Positions 292 through 36,335 of a stretch of DNA of 36,335 nucleotides are shown one piece after another. The notes beneath the pieces are model-generated. The model did not search any database. It was not told the origin of the DNA and saw only the letters and a list, made by a program, of their open reading frames with translations. The DNA lies in IMG/VR virus record IMGVR_UViG_3300009529_000006, positions 1 to 36,335 of that record; one strand, written 5' to 3'. Both the position numbers and the translations under genes were made by a program. Positions within the stretch are counted from its first letter, which is position 1, and every line of letters begins with the position of its first letter. The stretch comes from a virus.

Positions 292-1269
292 ATGCGTGGA
301 GTTTATCCAGACAAAGACGCCAAAATCGCAGGGGATGAGATTTCATCTACCTACGAAGGGCGACACTTAACGTTCCTAGAGAGTGAACTATTCCACCCTT
401 ATCATGCTGACGGTAAAGTGGATAAGGGCGACCCAGTTGTTGCTCAGACTAGCACGGGCTACATCGTGGGTGTGGCTTTCGAAAGTGCTGCAGCGGCGAC
501 AGACCTTATTGCCATCGACACAGAAGGTATCTGGGCGTTGAAGGTTTTCGCTGACACCGATGAGTTCTGGGATAAATCGGCTGGTGAAGGAGCAATTGTG
601 CCTGGCGACCCTCTGTTTATCGACCGCGTGACCACTGGCGCAATCACCGCCGGGGTAGGTGCCTGCGGTATCAGCAAGAGGCGAGACCGCGCCACTCAAG
701 TCCCGTTCGGCTTTGCTCTAGGTTCGATTGACAACGAAGGCGAAGGCGTTATCGCTGTCAAAGTCCATAATCAGGGCTCTTTCGACCTTCGCCGTTCAAT
801 GGGCAATAGGGCAGTAGTGAGTGGAGGTATGGGTTGGTCTTTCTTCGGAAGGATAACCGACGGCAAAACTGAAGGTCTTAACGGCTATGTGGACGGCACT
901 ATCCTGGGCACGCCCACTGGACCGACTTATGGGTTTGGTTCGTGGTTGTGCATAGATGATGCAGCAACTATGGGGGCAAATGTCGCAACCCCACACGATG
1001 TAGGCATTTATTCAGGTGCAGCTCAGGCCGCCGCTAATCTTTACTTCGCTGGCCAAGCCCAGGCTCAATTAGCTGGCAGTCCCGGTGCTCTTCACGCTTG
1101 GAGGTTTAACACGACCCACACAATCACTGCTCTATTCCTTGCAGCCAATCCTGGTTCTGTAGGCTACATAGTAGATGCTACGGAAGATGAAGGTAAAGTT
1201 GGCGCCATTCCATTTGTCACCGTATCTGGTGCCGTAAGATGGATTCGGCTGTATTCTGGTGGGAGTTAG
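292..1269 (+). CDS. Capsid cement/decoration protein (DUF2190-like N-terminus)
   Basis: A 325-residue protein just upstream of the major capsid gene and behind an AGGAGGTAAA ribosome binding site. The first ~160 residues have the small beta-barrel pattern of DUF2190-type cement proteins (GKVDKGDPVVAQTSTGYIVG, then GDPLFIDRVTTGAITAG and a VKVHN end), which bind the outside of HK97-fold capsids and stabilise them. The remaining ~165 residues are Gly/Ala rich, look beta-structured and resemble nothing I can name. They could be an outward-facing domain. The DUF2190 match is judged by eye. A head fibre role is the alternative. Confidence 0.65.
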   Translation: MRGVYPDKDAKIAGDEISSTYEGRHLTFLESELFHPYHADGKVDKGDPVVAQTSTGYIVGVAFESAAAATDLIAIDTEGIWALKVFADTDEFWDKSAGEGAIVPGDPLFIDRVTTGAITAGVGACGISKRRDRATQVPFGFALGSIDNEGEGVIAVKVHNQGSFDLRRSMGNRAVVSGGMGWSFFGRITDGKTEGLNGYVDGTILGTPTGPTYGFGSWLCIDDAATMGANVATPHDVGIYSGAAQAAANLYFAGQAQAQLAGSPGALHAWRFNTTHTITALFLAANPGSVGYIVDATEDEGKVGAIPFVTVSGAVRWIRLYSGGS

Positions 1270-6124: not shown

Positions 6125-6523
6125 ATGGGTAGAACAGATGAGCAAAAGATATTCCATGAATCCATCACGGTAGTTTTCGGCGGGCGAGAATATGGGGTAG
6201 AACCCCTCGTTATCAAGGAATCCCGCGCATGGAGACAAAAGGTTCTCAATGTCTTGACTGAGCTTCCCAAACTTACTAAGGCATCCTCGGATAAACCCGA
6301 AGAGTTTAATACTGCTATCGAATCCCTCTTAATTACTATGCCTGATACTGTAGTCGACCTCTTCTTCTCCTACGCAAGAGATCTTCCCCGGGAGGAGATT
6401 GAGGCGATTGCCACCGATTCCGAGATGGCTACAGCTTGGCAGCAGATATCAGAGATTGCCTTCCCTTTACTTCAAGGGCTGGTGAGGACGATGGGGAGGA
6501 TGGTGCCTCCGAAGCCTCAATAG
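6125..6523 (+). CDS. Tail assembly chaperone, short form (gpG-like)
   Basis: A 132-residue protein between the tail tube and tape measure genes, the canonical place of lambda G/GT-type chaperones. It is helical and acidic (MPDTVVDLFFSYARDLPREE) and starts at an ATG behind AAAGGAGTG. A second frame, -1 relative to this one, overlaps its end and continues to 6741. A CCCTTTA slippery heptamer at 6463 lies in phase. The short form would be made by most ribosomes and would bind the tape measure during tail assembly. Confidence 0.8.
   Translation: MGRTDEQKIFHESITVVFGGREYGVEPLVIKESRAWRQKVLNVLTELPKLTKASSDKPEEFNTAIESLLITMPDTVVDLFFSYARDLPREEIEAIATDSEMATAWQQISEIAFPLLQGLVRTMGRMVPPKPQ
6463..6469 (+). promoter_or_regulatory. 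Programmed -1 frameshift slippery heptamer CCCTTTA
   Basis: In the chaperone frame the bases read C CCT TTA, the ideal X XXY YYZ arrangement, so both tRNAs can re-pair on CCC and TTT after a -1 slip. The -1 frame then continues for 90 codons to 6741. A GGAGG/CCTCC hairpin (6495-6499 with 6506-6510) lies 25 bases downstream and may act as a stimulator. Confidence 0.8.
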
Positions 6524-20539: not shown

Positions 20540-20800
20540 ATGCCATATCCTAAGAATAAATATCGCAAGGGTTATACCATATATGGAATGGATACTTTAT
20601 TAGAGCACCTTAAAAAGGGGCGATGGGTTTATCTCAGGGATAAGGTAGTGCATCCGAGCTTCATCCTGCACATGACCTTTAACACAGTAGCAGGATTCTT
20701 GGATGCTCACCAAATCAGTGAGGCTATTAACCAACAAAAAGAATACTACGGTGAGAAAGTGAAACCTTATGCCAATTTACGAGGACGAAAGCAGAACTAG
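20540..20800 (+). CDS. Unknown 86-residue early protein
   Basis: Starts 2 bases after the previous stop, with GAGAGGTAG upstream. Basic N-terminus (YPKNKYRKGYTIYGMDTLLE), an aromatic central part, and a C-terminus overlapping the RecT gene by 32 bases. No motifs. A small protein of this form next to RecT might be a single-strand-binding or loader accessory, which is only positional. Confidence 0.5.
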   Translation: MPYPKNKYRKGYTIYGMDTLLEHLKKGRWVYLRDKVVHPSFILHMTFNTVAGFLDAHQISEAINQQKEYYGEKVKPYANLRGRKQN

Positions 20801-21899
20801 GGAAGACCTGTTTGAGTTACGCAAGCGGAATAAATGCCGAGTCTGCGGGGGGATGCTTAATGTATTTCTTGACTTTGATAAAGGTAAAGCATTTCTAGCC
20901 TGTAACGATTGGCACCGGACTCATCATGAAGGCATTGTGAGAGAGGCTAGTCAATATGAGCAAAAGGGCATTGAGTCCCTTAATATAAAATCAAGGAGGG
21001 AAATCATGGTAAACCAATTTGGCAAAGAAAGGACAGTGGCGCTAGAAAGGTATCACGGAGTGACTTCATTGACAAAGGGGGAGGTAAAGGAAATCTTGAT
21101 GACGGTCTTTCCAGATGCCCCCGAGGTGGAAATGACAAGGGCAGTGCTGTTATGCGCCAGCTACTCATTAAACCCACTGATGGGTCATGTCTTCCTTATC
21201 CCTTTTAATAAGGGGAAGCCTAATGAGTCTTGGGCTACGGTAATCGGTATCAAGGCAAAGCGCCTGCTTGCTTCTAGGAAACGAGCTTTTAGTTTTGTAG
21301 ATGATACTCCCCGGATTATGACGAAGGAGGAGCAAGAGAAGGTCTTTGGCAAGGTAGATGGCGAGCATATCGTAGCGATAACTGTGCTTCAAGACCCTGC
21401 CACCGGTGCTATAGCCAGAGGCTACGGCAAGTGGGGAAAAGGCACAACAGTTTATGGGACTGACAAAGGCAATAGTGCTGAGAATATGGCTTTTATTCGG
21501 AGCGAGAGCCAAGCACTTGACCGCCTATGCCCTGGGGAAATGCCAGTTGGTGTCGGCGTGGTGGATGAGCAATTTGTAGCTTCTAAAGGCGAGGTGATTG
21601 AGGGTGAGGCTACTGAGGTTGTAGATGAGCCATTGATTGCCGGACCTCAGCCTCAAAAGTCTAAAGGGCCAGCACCTAAGACAACTCCGCCATCTGCCGA
21701 GTCGCATGCTGAAGAGCCGACTTCTAATTCTAACACGGTTGAGGCTCTTAAAGAGACAATGGCTGAGTGCAACTGGTCGGCACAGGACTTGGGACAGTTT
21801 TGCGTTAATGAGAAGGGGTGGAAAATCAGGGAGTATAGTGACCTGACCTCGGAGCAGATTTCCGAATTGATAGAGGATATAAAGAAAAACCCGAAGTAA
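20769..21899 (+). CDS. recT: RecT-family single-strand annealing protein with zinc-ribbon leader
   Basis: A 376-residue frame. Residues ~22-60 hold CRVCGG and ACNDWHRTHHEG, a zinc-ribbon-like leader. The RecT/Bet annealing core follows: residues ~105-240 with VLLCASYSLNPLMGHVFLIP, WATVIGIKAKRLLASRKRAF and GAIARGYGKWGKG. The C-terminus is a Pro/Ser-rich linker and a small helical domain. An internal ATG at 21006 behind AAGGAGGGAAATC would give the RecT core alone (297 residues), so two forms may be made. Partner nuclease candidates are the VRR-NUC at 23233 and host enzymes. No dedicated lambda-type exonuclease is seen. Confidence 0.75.
   Translation: MPIYEDESRTREDLFELRKRNKCRVCGGMLNVFLDFDKGKAFLACNDWHRTHHEGIVREASQYEQKGIESLNIKSRREIMVNQFGKERTVALERYHGVTSLTKGEVKEILMTVFPDAPEVEMTRAVLLCASYSLNPLMGHVFLIPFNKGKPNESWATVIGIKAKRLLASRKRAFSFVDDTPRIMTKEEQEKVFGKVDGEHIVAITVLQDPATGAIARGYGKWGKGTTVYGTDKGNSAENMAFIRSESQALDRLCPGEMPVGVGVVDEQFVASKGEVIEGEATEVVDEPLIAGPQPQKSKGPAPKTTPPSAESHAEEPTSNSNTVEALKETMAECNWSAQDLGQFCVNEKGWKIREYSDLTSEQISELIEDIKKNPK
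21006..21018 (+). promoter_or_regulatory. Internal start of a short RecT form
   Basis: ATG 21006 lies in frame within the RecT gene, 7 bases after a near-perfect AAGGAGGGA site at 20993-21001. The site is stronger than the one for the first ATG at 20769, so the core annealing protein is likely made independently of the zinc-ribbon leader. Confidence 0.6.
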
Positions 21900-21904
21900 A
21901 TCTT

Positions 21905-22320
21905 AACAACTGAATAATAGCCTGTCAGCTACCCGAAAGGGCAGAACTCGTTGGTTACGGGATGGGAGAGTAACCGAATCTGGCTCTCTATGGCTGGCAG
22001 GAAGGGCTTGGTGGTGTCCTACGCTGTGAGCGGGATAGAGTTATTCCCCTAAGGGGGACTCGCCGCCACCACTAACCGTCGGACTACAGGCGGGGCGAGA
22101 GTTCCGTGAGAAAGGGCAACGAGGTTCCGAGCCACCAGGCCAGCCTGAGCCGAGTGGTATCTGGACAAGCAGAGCCAATTAGCATACTTCTACTAGGTGA
22201 CTTGTCTGAAGCCTAGTTTAAGGAAGGGCGTTAAAAGTTGGCGGTGATGCCTTAAAAGAAGAGGGTGCGGTAGGCTTAGGACTGTTCTGCGATAGGAGAT
22301 TGCAAACTCTGAAGGGAGAA
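21905..22320 (+). ncRNA. Candidate structured noncoding RNA (unclassified)
   Basis: The only gap over 300 bases without a gene, between RecT and the DnaD-like gene. All three + frames are broken by stops, yet it folds well by eye. CCTGTCAGC (21921-21929) pairs with GCTGGCAGG (21993-22001), enclosing CCC-GAAA-GGG (21932-21941) and GGTTAC/GTAACC (21953-21958, 21970-21975). TTGGTGGTG (22008-22016) pairs with CACCACTAA (22067-22075), enclosing a CGCT/AGCG hairpin (22022-22032) and GAGT/ACTC with CCCC/GGGG. Further on lie ACTAGG/CCTAGT (22192-22197, 22212-22217) and TTAAGG/CCTTAA (22218-22223, 22250-22255). It matches no RNA family I can recall (not tmRNA, RNase P, group I/II, 6S). It may be a cis element or a separate RNA. 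Confidence 0.65.
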
Positions 22321-22324
22321 TTAA

Positions 22325-23236
22325 GTGCCAGAGAGGGGATTTGACACAGCATTTTGGGACGATCCCTTTGTTATGAAGCTGCCTAAAGATGGCAAGCTCC
22401 TTTACGCCTACCTCTGGACTAATCCTCACTGCAACCCAGCCGGCCTATATGAGATTGCCCTAGAGACTATTGCCTTTGAGACAAAGCTGGCTATAGAGGA
22501 TATACCAGCTCTCCTTGAGGCATTAAAGCCCAAGGTGATTTGGTATGCTAAAGAAGACCTTGTTTGGGTCAAGAACTTTGTTATAAGACAGACAAAGTCC
22601 TCTCAGTTCCTAAAAGGGGTGGCTCGGAGTCTTACATCTATTCATCACGACACCGCCGTTCAGGAGCTATTGAATTACAACCTCAAGCGACCTACCCCCT
22701 ACGGAGAGATACCATATAAGTATTATATGGATAGAATATCCACGCCTGCTGATGTTGAAGGGGAGACGCCCCTTCAAAACCCCCAGAGTAAAGAACCTTC
22801 ATCCAAGACCAAGGACATCTTGGACCCGAAACTAGGAGCAATCGCCAAGTGCTTTGAGGAGAAAAGGATTGATGGCGGGATATTGACTCCAACTAAGTTT
22901 GAGCGACTGAAGATAATAGCTGATACCTGCTCTGAGGGGTTGTTTGAGAAGGCTGTAGAAGAAGCCTGTGCCTATAATCATCGCAATCTGGGATATATAG
23001 AAAAGATACTGGAGCGGTGGAACAAAGAGGGATTTGGTTCATCTAGGACAAAGGGAAAGGGGTATGACTATAGAGATGACCCCCGTGATATTGCTTTCCA
23101 GAATAAGTTGGGATTACGCTTAAGGAAAGCTAACTCAGAGATGCTAAAGGAGCAGGGGCGTGATTTAACGATGGATGAAAGGCTTGCTATCAAAAAAGAG
23201 GTGGCAGAAGAGATGGGGATGGAGTTTGAGGAATGA
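22325..23236 (+). CDS. DnaD-like phage replication protein
   Basis: A 303-residue protein starting at GTG behind GAAGGGAG. The N-terminal ~100 residues are a winged-helix domain of phage replisome organisers (FVMKLPKDGKLLYAYLWTNP then AGLYEIALETIAFETKL). The C-terminal region has a DnaD/DnaB_2-type helical domain (FEKAVEEACAYNHRNLGYIE and KILERWNKEGFG). It would bind the origin and recruit the host helicase. No phage polymerase, helicase or primase is visible, so the phage relies on the host replisome. Residues ~143-151 come from a palindromic element shared with the integrase gene. Confidence 0.75.
   Translation: MPERGFDTAFWDDPFVMKLPKDGKLLYAYLWTNPHCNPAGLYEIALETIAFETKLAIEDIPALLEALKPKVIWYAKEDLVWVKNFVIRQTKSSQFLKGVARSLTSIHHDTAVQELLNYNLKRPTPYGEIPYKYYMDRISTPADVEGETPLQNPQSKEPSSKTKDILDPKLGAIAKCFEEKRIDGGILTPTKFERLKIIADTCSEGLFEKAVEEACAYNHRNLGYIEKILERWNKEGFGSSRTKGKGYDYRDDPRDIAFQNKLGLRLRKANSEMLKEQGRDLTMDERLAIKKEVAEEMGMEFEE
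22755..22777. repeat. Palindromic element inside the DnaD-like gene (copy 2)
   Basis: TTGAAGGGG (22755-22763) and CCCCTTCAA (22769-22777) are perfect inverse complements around AGACG. The sequence is close to the palindrome at 15627-15653. Here it encodes EGETPLQN in the linker after the winged-helix domain. Confidence 0.7.
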
Positions 23237-28609: not shown

Positions 28610-28676
28610 TTATCAATTTAATATCAACCAGAGCTTAAAAAGATTATTCAAACTAATAAGCAGGCGGTGAGGATAG

Positions 28677-29084
28677 ATGGCTAAACATAATGGCGGTAGA
28701 CCTAAAATCAATATAGATTATAAACAGTTGGAGGGCTTTTGCCTAATTCAATGTTCTTTAGCGGAGATAGCTACCTTTTTCAACTGCTCTGAGGATACCA
28801 TAGAGCGCAGAGTCAAGGAGCATTTTGGGGTGAGTTTTGCGGAGTATTTTAGCAAAAAGAGAATCGGAGGACTAATCTCACTTAGACGCAATCTGTTTAA
28901 ACTGTCGGAGAAGAATGCAGCGGTAGCTATATTCCTTGCTAAAAATTGGCTTGGAATGGCGGACAAAACTGAGATAGCTAATCCCCCAGGAGAAAGTTTT
29001 AGGGTAGAACATGATGCCAAAGACAAACTCATTCAGATGTTGAATAGGCTGGCTGAACGAAAGAAAGAAGCGGAAGCTAAATAG
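28677..29084 (+). CDS. terS: Terminase small subunit
   Basis: A 135-residue protein behind GGTGAGG. It begins NGGRPKINIDYKQLEGFCLI, then a helix-turn-helix (CSLAEIATFFNCSEDTIERR), GVSFAEYFSKKR, and LISLRRNLFKLSEKNAAVAI followed by FLAKNWLGM. This is a common terminase small-subunit pattern, which binds phage DNA for packaging. TerL follows after an antisense HNH gene. The 3' end overlaps the end of that - strand gene by 8 bases. Confidence 0.85.
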   Translation: MAKHNGGRPKINIDYKQLEGFCLIQCSLAEIATFFNCSEDTIERRVKEHFGVSFAEYFSKKRIGGLISLRRNLFKLSEKNAAVAIFLAKNWLGMADKTEIANPPGESFRVEHDAKDKLIQMLNRLAERKKEAEAK

Positions 29085-34500: not shown

Positions 34501-36335
34501 ATGCCTTATACAGTTGATAATCCGCCAGAGCAGATTGAAAAACTACCAAAGCACGCTATTGAGATTTGGGTAGCTGCCTACAATTCCGCCTTCGAACAAT
34601 ATGAGGGCGATGAAGCGAAGGCGAATGCTACTGCTTGGGCTGCTGTCAAAATGAAATACAGGCAGGATGAGGATGGTAACTGGGTAGCCAAAGAAAGCAA
34701 GGAGGTTATTATGGCCAGTAAATTTAGTGCCGAGGATAAGCGGGAATTGTTGAAGGTGGCACTTATCGACAAGTTCGGATATGGCGGGGATGATTACTTA
34801 TATGTGGAAGATGTCTGGGATAACGAGTGTGTCTACCGAGTGAAAAGTGGGGACTATAAGATAAGCTATACCCTGAGTGAGAAGGGCGAGGTGGAGTTAG
34901 GAGAACCCGAGAAGGTAATGCGCCAAACGACCTATGAGCCGATAGAAGCCCTACAAGCCAAATACTCTGAGATTATTCAGGAAGTAGGGAAACGAAATGC
35001 AGCCCTGGATGCAGCCAGACTCAAGAAGATTGTGGAGCTTTGCCAGGAGTTGCTGTCGTCTGAAGAGCCGGATAAAGAAAAAACTAAAGAGGCTCTCAAA
35101 GAAGCTGATAAGGTGCTGGCTTGGCTGAAAGAGCAGAAGGTCATGAAGACTGAGGATGGAGTTAAATACCCTGCTGCTGCCTATGCCTATGTGGGTGATC
35201 CCGAAAAGTCTACCACCTGGAAACTGAGGCTTTGGCAAGACCTTGAGAAGAAAGTCACCCGAGTCCAGCTGGGCAGAGCAGCTGCGGCTTTAAGCCCTGG
35301 CGGATTCAGGGGACAGAAAGTGCAGATTCCTTCAGCTGACTTGCCAGCCGTGAAGAGGAAAATCCGAGCAGAATATAGCAAGCTGGGTGTAGAACCGGAT
35401 GAGGTTCCGAAGTGGGTGAAAGAAGTTGAGACTAGGGAATTGATTTTAAGCTATGTCCCACTTACCGAGGCCAAGTTTGATAAAGGGAGAGCTACAGTAA
35501 TTGTTATCAAGGCTGGCTTCAATGAAGATAATTCTCGCTACTATCCTGAGGAAGTCCTGAAGAGGGATTATAAAATATTCGAAGGACAGAAAATGTATGC
35601 CGACCATCCGACCGAGGAAGAGGAAGAAGCCCGGCCTGAGAGGTCGATAAAGGACTGGGTTGCCACCTTGACCAATGTGACATGCGATGAAAGCGGCACT
35701 ATCACCGGTATTGCTGAAATCATCGAGCCATGGTTGCTAACGAAGTTAGCCTCACTGCGAGATAAAGGGATGCTTTCAGAGATGGGCATTTCAATCAATG
35801 CAGTGGGAAGCGCATCGAAGGCTACCATTGATGGTAAAGAGACGCTGGTGATTGAGAAGCTGGTCGCATCCAGGTCGGTTGATTTTGTAACCGAACCTGG
35901 CGCCGGCGGGGTGGTCACATTCTACGAGGCCGACCGGCAAAGGGATATTGACCTAGTAGAACTATCAACCCTGAAGGACCGTCGCCCTGACTTAATTAAA
36001 GCTGTTGAGGCTGGGGTCAGGGTAGAAATTCAGAAGGAGGTAAAGCACAAGATGGAACTTGAAGAGCGAATCACGGAACTGGAGGGTCAGATTGAAACTC
36101 TGACCACGGAGCGCGACGACCTCAAGACCAAGGCGCAGGAGGCAGAGAAGGCAAAAGTGAAAGCCGAAGCACAAGCCGCCATTAAGGAGGCTGTAGACAA
36201 GGCCGAGCTACCCGATGCTGCCAAAGAGCAGCTCTTGGAGAGGTTCAAGGACGCTGAGTCTGCCGAGGGGATTGAGGAGGCGATACAGTCCGAGAAGGAT
36301 TATATCGCCAAGCTGGCCGAGGCGGGCAAGGTGAA
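34501..36335 (+). CDS. ChaB-domain / prohead protease / scaffold fusion (continues at 1-144)
   Basis: A 651-residue protein counted over the circle junction, starting at ATG 34501 behind AGGAGGTAATT. Residues 1-62 match the ChaB domain (LPKHAIEIWVAAYNSAFEQY then ANATAWAAVKMKY). Residues ~330-475 look like an S80-type prohead protease: GFNEDNSRYYPEEVLKRDY, H369 (MYADHP), then S431 (EMGISINAVG) and VDFVTEPGAGG, the likely catalytic His and Ser. Residues ~495-651 are coiled coil, the scaffold. It probably cleaves its own scaffold and the capsid during maturation. The N-terminal part seems unrelated to cleavage. Confidence 0.8.
   Translation, partial: MPYTVDNPPEQIEKLPKHAIEIWVAAYNSAFEQYEGDEAKANATAWAAVKMKYRQDEDGNWVAKESKEVIMASKFSAEDKRELLKVALIDKFGYGGDDYLYVEDVWDNECVYRVKSGDYKISYTLSEKGEVELGEPEKVMRQTTYEPIEALQAKYSEIIQEVGKRNAALDAARLKKIVELCQELLSSEEPDKEKTKEALKEADKVLAWLKEQKVMKTEDGVKYPAAAYAYVGDPEKSTTWKLRLWQDLEKKVTRVQLGRAAAALSPGGFRGQKVQIPSADLPAVKRKIRAEYSKLGVEPDEVPKWVKEVETRELILSYVPLTEAKFDKGRATVIVIKAGFNEDNSRYYPEEVLKRDYKIFEGQKMYADHPTEEEEEARPERSIKDWVATLTNVTCDESGTITGIAEIIEPWLLTKLASLRDKGMLSEMGISINAVGSASKATIDGKETLVIEKLVASRSVDFVTEPGAGGVVTFYEADRQRDIDLVELSTLKDRRPDLIKAVEAGVRVEIQKEVKHKMELEERITELEGQIETLTTERDDLKTKAQEAEKAKVKAEAQAAIKEAVDKAELPDAAKEQLLERFKDAESAEGIEEAIQSEKDYIAKLAEAGKV
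36313..36335. repeat. Terminal direct repeat marking circular closure (copy 2)
   Basis: Identical to bases 1-23, within the protease/scaffold reading frame. See copy 1. Confidence 0.9.

Follow-up and report, generated by a model that had tools for sequence, protein, structure and literature searches.

The largest gap between genes in the window, by which we mean the whole analysed stretch of 36,335 nucleotides (IMG/VR virus record IMGVR_UViG_3300009529_000006), is a real non-coding, structured RNA between two DNA-replication genes (21900-22324). It opens with a boxA antitermination element of the type found in the ribosomal RNA leaders of Dehalococcoidia, followed by a row of folded domains that recur in many other phages. 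We propose, with a probability of roughly 70%, that it is an untranslated modular RNA within the recombination–replication transcript, whose boxA would load NusB–S10, whose transcription would cross into the dnaD-like gene, and whose domains would be the protected product.

The recT–dnaD gap and its folded domains

The gap between the recT-like and dnaD-like genes measures 425 nt and is the window's largest between non-overlapping open reading frames of at least 60 amino acids, the runner-up being 307. No gene-like reading frame was found in it, as a preliminary description made from the letters alone had stated, and no terminator-like site was found within 21700-22500. The features of the region are as follows.

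20769-21899, plus strand: gene for a RecT-like ssDNA-annealing protein, the upstream neighbour (Pfam RecT, E = 4.9e-6)
21903-21916, plus strand: boxA antitermination element, TTAACAACTGAATA, beginning 3 nt past the recT stop codon
21921-22001, plus strand: domain B, with closing stem 21921-21930/21992-22001, the GAAA hairpin ACCCGAAAGGG and an inner hairpin beside the 3′ strand
22005-22141, plus strand: domain A (tentative), with closing stem GGCTTGGTGG (22005-22014)/CCACCAGGCC (22132-22141) and the motifs GGTGTC and TCCGAGCC
22143-22281, plus strand: domain C, with closing stem CCTGAGCC (22144-22151)/GGCTTAGG (22273-22280) and the motif GAGTGGTATC
22282-22324, plus strand: leader of the DnaD-like gene, with a Shine-Dalgarno-like GAAGGGAGAA, read directly from the sequence
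22325-23236, plus strand: gene for a DnaD-like helicase loader or replisome organiser, the downstream neighbour (Pfam DnaB_2, E = 1e-8; PHROG replisome organizer, E = 3.6e-14)

The domains stand in the order B, A, C with linkers of 1-3 nt. No domain of the family's fourth type, D, was recognised in the window, 22282-22324 included. The first stem of the preliminary description (21921-21929/21993-22001, enclosing a CCC-GAAA-GGG hairpin) is real; it extends to 10 bp and is conserved in other phages. The second stem proposed there (22008-22016/22067-22075) can be formed on paper, with 9 bp and one G-U, but stands in competition with an A stem of the family type, 22005-22014/22132-22141. Similarly, a long-range contact suggested between a CCTAAG loop and CTTAGG at 22275-22280 gives way to a better explanation, in which this CTTAGG lies within GGCTTAGG and pairs with CCTGAGCC to close domain C.

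Covariance models R1 (domain B) and R2 (domain C) were built from other phages without the window, and its 36 kb were then searched with them. R1 matched once, at 21922-22000 (E = 9e-6), and R2 once, at 22143-22281 (E = 0.0062). Through these matches, two of the window's domains belong to the family's B type (GCCAGCY closing stem, ACCCGAAAGGG hairpin and GTAGC..GCTAC inner stem) and C type (closing stem CCTGAGCCGA..GTAGGCTCAGG). The inner stem of the window's own B domain differs in sequence from that of the family and lies outside the automatic inner-stem count given below. Model R3, for domain A, had no match in the window; the assignment of domain A is accordingly based on motifs, on its position between B and C and on a compensating stem. 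Its ends match the family consensus GCTTGCTGGTGTC...CGAGCCAGCAAGC by motif, and its closing stem carries a compensating C/G to G/C change, from GCTGG/CCAGC to GGTGG/CCACC.

Pairing within the family exceeded expectation. A scan in which only the 5′ strand of the B closing stem was fixed (GCCAGCYACCCGAAAGG) returned 38 contigs, and the partner strand was present 49-135 nt downstream at 30 of 37 places. Among 28 distinct B domains, the free positions of the closing stem paired above permutation (p = 0.0013, uncorrected for phage relatedness), and an inner stem beside the 3′ strand (GTAGC/GCTAC and covarying versions) was present in 27 of 40 domains, against 10.0 expected. Pair counts on A2, A3 and A4 are biased, since domain ends were picked partly by pairing, and we therefore relied on the R1 and R2 hold-outs, the permutation test and the inner-stem count. 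Two matches of R1 elsewhere (L281 and L282) look coding and were discarded as false positives.

Fold-energy z-scores were -3.17 for domain B, -2.51 for C, -1.62 for A and -1.48 for the entire stretch; as folding energy alone is weak evidence, the case was built on comparison. The preliminary description had recognised no known family, and an Rfam 15 scan of the window at gathering cut-offs likewise reached none: GOLLD, ROOL, OLE, HEARO, group I/II introns, tmRNA and riboswitches were all without a match. A permissive scan (E ≤ 10) gave only chance-level twister-P1 and NEAT1_3, the twister-P1 hit scoring 16.1 bits (E = 1.8) against a gathering score of 67.2 bits. A group I/II intron was dropped, with no Rfam match and no split gene, and integron attC and pseudogene readings were considered and dropped as well.

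The boxA element and its proposed role

The boxA, which is absent from the preliminary description, is sense-oriented and unpaired, and it heads untranslated RNA. In 17 of 17 readable Dehalococcoidia 16S loci, all from the family of one Dehalococcoidia genome that carries the arrays described below, a motif of the form TTAACARYTRAATA or a close variant lies 36-40 nt before the 16S gene; judged by its position and type, it is the rRNA boxA. One of these leaders (L253) has exactly TTAACAACTGAATA, and the other 16 differ by 1-3 mismatches, so that the window's element has the sequence of the boxA in the rRNA leader of the putative host. The host is a putative one, assigned from relatives, and we call this boxA host-type. 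When the window was compared with host 16S and ITS sequences, the boxA stretch alone stood out. No stable duplex between a boxA and its own array was found in any of the five arrays tested, the window's included.

The same placement recurs elsewhere. Many phages have exact boxA copies at gene ends, directly after the stop codon and ahead of module arrays, and in other phages the motif also sits at gene ends, its TAA often being the stop codon. When B domains were found independently of boxA, 10 of 29 had a boxA within 450 nt upstream, compared with 0 of 29 on the opposite strand, and 19 of 29 had no recognisable boxA within that distance. Thus, boxA is linked to the modules but is not obligatory.

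BoxA is bound by NusB/E (NusB–S10), and the Nus complex blocks Rho termination (PMC5725501); a boxA preceding CRISPR arrays lifts their transcript about tenfold (PMC7862264). We envisage that, as RNA polymerase leaves recT, NusB–S10 would bind the boxA and render the polymerase resistant to Rho. The resistant polymerase would then pass through some 410 nt that are not translated and arrive at the dnaD-like gene. Downstream of the boxA the RNA folds as separate domains B, A and C, each with a conserved closing helix, conserved junction motifs and a fast-changing interior, and these domains would be the product that is being protected, a stable RNA with more than a spacer role. In E. coli, a boxA on its own affects termination that depends on Rho and not intrinsic termination, and the effect of the element would accordingly depend on active Rho in the hosts. 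The sequence comparisons establish the identity of the boxA with host-type rrn leaders, the homology of the domains, their pairing and their recurrence. Through its boxA, the stretch is likely to have a general role in antitermination.

Several further boxA-like sites came to light. Within the window, a weak boxA-like TTATCAATTTAATA with 3 mismatches lies at 28610-28623 (plus strand), shortly before a small ORF at 28677. In other phages (L207:2652+, L115:3992+, L214 reverse strand 3652 and L235 reverse strand 7089), the boxA flank pairs strongly with a downstream trailer, at -35 to -46 kcal/mol versus about -19 for shuffles; in L207, L115 and L214 this pairing brackets a small ORF, resembling the leader–trailer helix of an rRNA operon but here around a phage gene. 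At another set of loci (L014:8112, L019:1007, L137, L125, L126, L136, L188, L291 and L293), an intrinsic-terminator-like hairpin with a T-run comes within tens of nucleotides after a boxA or variant, with a gene just downstream, and in L291 a B domain lies in between. Such a combination before a gene is possibly a site of regulated readthrough.

Modular arrays in other phages

Relatives of the stretch were not found by the usual routes: a DNA similarity search in annotated phages gave chance matches only, and single-protein searches of viral contigs with RecT and DnaD gave none that was confirmed. A terminase search yielded 80 viral loci, and a RecT alignment search yielded eight loci. In one of the eight (L103), about 270 nt of non-coding sequence lie behind recT and contain two co-linear short matches to the window, namely TTAACAACTGAATA and AGCTACCCGARAGGG, the latter inside a nested stem. 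Among the matches listed in a viral motif scan were many chance hits together with loci where the motif stands at the head of long, structured and untranslated sequence, and a narrower motif scan added further loci of this kind. When genomes were scanned for the motif with GCTGGT behind it, eight records were returned. Three of them are Dehalococcoidia, each with the same arrays; on these Dehalococcoidia contigs lie genes of phage type (recombination directionality factor, DnaB helicase, tape measure protein and DNA polymerase A). Two matches proved to be chance hits inside coding sequence, one at 35513 in G011 and one to the C-domain motif in L226.

Similar arrays of boxA plus modules are present on dozens of contigs from viruses and on three from Dehalococcoidia. 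The modules usually follow one another as A-B-C-D, some being lost or repeated, and the domain types have the following ends.

Domain A, family ends: GCTTGCTGGTGTC...CGAGCCAGCAAGC
Domain B, family ends: TGCCAGCYACCCGAAAGGG...GCTACYRGCTGGCA
Domain C, family ends: GCCTGAGCCGAG...GTAGGCTCAGGC
Domain D, type: GGTGGGGTG...CACCAGCCCCACC

Closing stems and motifs are near-constant while interiors are very different, and the number and size of modules vary widely between arrays. The arrays often lie behind genes for ssDNA annealing: the window, L103 and L107 have a RecT-like one and L231 an Erf-like one; in L228, L235 and L224 the upstream protein is similar to these by eye. Other arrays lie behind different genes, and the downstream genes vary. 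Given that the same modules occur in many related uncharacterised phages of Dehalococcoidia-type bacteria, this looks like a previously undescribed RNA family.

Other elements were seen alongside the arrays. A lone B domain follows a TTGACA/TATAAT-like promoter and precedes a terminator-like hairpin in L305 (reverse strand, 9168) and L314 (735), an arrangement from which it appears that the B domain may also be transcribed alone. A short B-like domain without boxA (L280:1503) lies on a Dehalococcoidia contig before an apparent integrase gene. A different hairpin-rich non-coding stretch, without boxA, lies behind recT in L014 (2190-2345; z = -1.26), with the long closing stem GCGGGTCCTA/TAGGACCCGC.

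Competing readings and known systems

The modules might instead be part of a cis-acting antitermination device, like HK022 put or lambda nut, that modifies the polymerase so that it passes later terminators, rather than a cargo protected by boxA. The arrays are indeed embedded in operons behind boxA; L291 has the order boxA-B-terminator-gene and L293 the order B-boxA-terminator-gene, and the lone B domains of L305 and L314 stand between promoter-like and terminator-like sites. Against this, many module copies lack a boxA, and the modules differ greatly in number and size, whereas put and nut sites are short. In L176 a strong terminator stands directly behind an A-B pair, which suits a released RNA at least equally well. 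Like nut and put, the window RNA has hairpins in an early phage transcript and, as in nut, a boxA, but it is much larger, has several domains and is only putatively involved in antitermination. On balance, we consider a put- or nut-like role unlikely.

Less probable still is that the array consists of tRNA-derived or tRNA-mimicking elements serving as decoys or substrates for tRNA-handling or tRNA-cutting enzymes. The array of L241 is headed by a tRNA-like domain (1038-1123, minus strand) that scores 39.5 bits against Rfam tRNA and is called tRNA-??? by ARAGORN, with no full anticodon, and its acceptor stem TTGCTGG/CCAGCAA is the A closing stem. A tRNA match of 36 bits lies inside an A domain of L160 (4902-4982, minus strand), and the array of L312 starts by eye with a tRNA-like element (about 6210-6380). 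Only in L241 and L160, however, did the cloverleaf model RF00005 reach its 29 bits; most arrays have no tRNA match, and the window has none even at E = 10. In addition, the B domain has the form not of a cloverleaf but of a three-way junction that carries a GAAA hairpin.

The preliminary description had left a choice between a new RNA class and an element controlling the replication gene at 22325. The first part stands, as a structured non-coding RNA of possibly new class, in view of the homologous domains, the hold-outs, the paired changes, the inner stem and the lack of an Rfam match. We do not favour a device specific to that one gene, since different phages have different genes downstream. 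If the stretch were a riboswitch-like or translational leader of the dnaD-like gene, its ending right before that gene's ribosome-binding site would be explained, but the region has no terminator-like site, and it is unlike a leader to stack several domain types in an order that recurs; we regard this reading as highly improbable. A replication origin with hairpins working as DNA would fit the position between recombination and replication-initiation genes, but arrays also lie behind other genes and the sense-oriented boxA indicates RNA, so this reading can practically be set aside.

Returning to the modular RNA, we compared it with known systems. It shares with rRNA operons an identical 14-nt motif (in L253) set before untranslated structured RNA, but here the boxA opens a phage RNA without ribosomal RNA, and the five arrays tested have no pairing trailer. 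With boxA-led CRISPR arrays (PMC7862264) it shares a boxA that would sustain transcription of a long untranslated array, although it has no repeats or spacers and consists of differing folded domains in recurrent order. GOLLD, ROOL and OLE (PMC12286853) are also large structured non-coding RNAs, and GOLLD and ROOL are known from phages; by contrast, the RNA described here has no Rfam match, is much smaller and is an array of short independent domains instead of one long fold. As for tRNA, the L241 domain scores as one and one further array has a match, whereas the window's domains match none at the permissive threshold.

A search of the open-access literature found nothing similar to the modular RNA. 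While boxA is already known, the modular RNA behind it appears to be a new family, with a match in neither Rfam 15 nor the open-access literature searched. More tentatively, and at slightly less than even odds in our judgement, it could represent a new class of phage non-coding RNA organised like a stable-RNA operon, in which a host rRNA boxA is combined with interchangeable A, B, C and D domains that act in trans on the host or on competing elements.

What emerges is an RNA family made up of several domain types that recur, present in dozens of environmental phage contigs. The link to boxA suggests a route of transcription, and it connects the making of phage RNA with the ribosomal RNA machinery of the host in Dehalococcoidia, a bacterial group whose phages have barely been studied. 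The conserved helix ends and diverging interiors suggest that something recognises the ends of the domains while their interiors change quickly.
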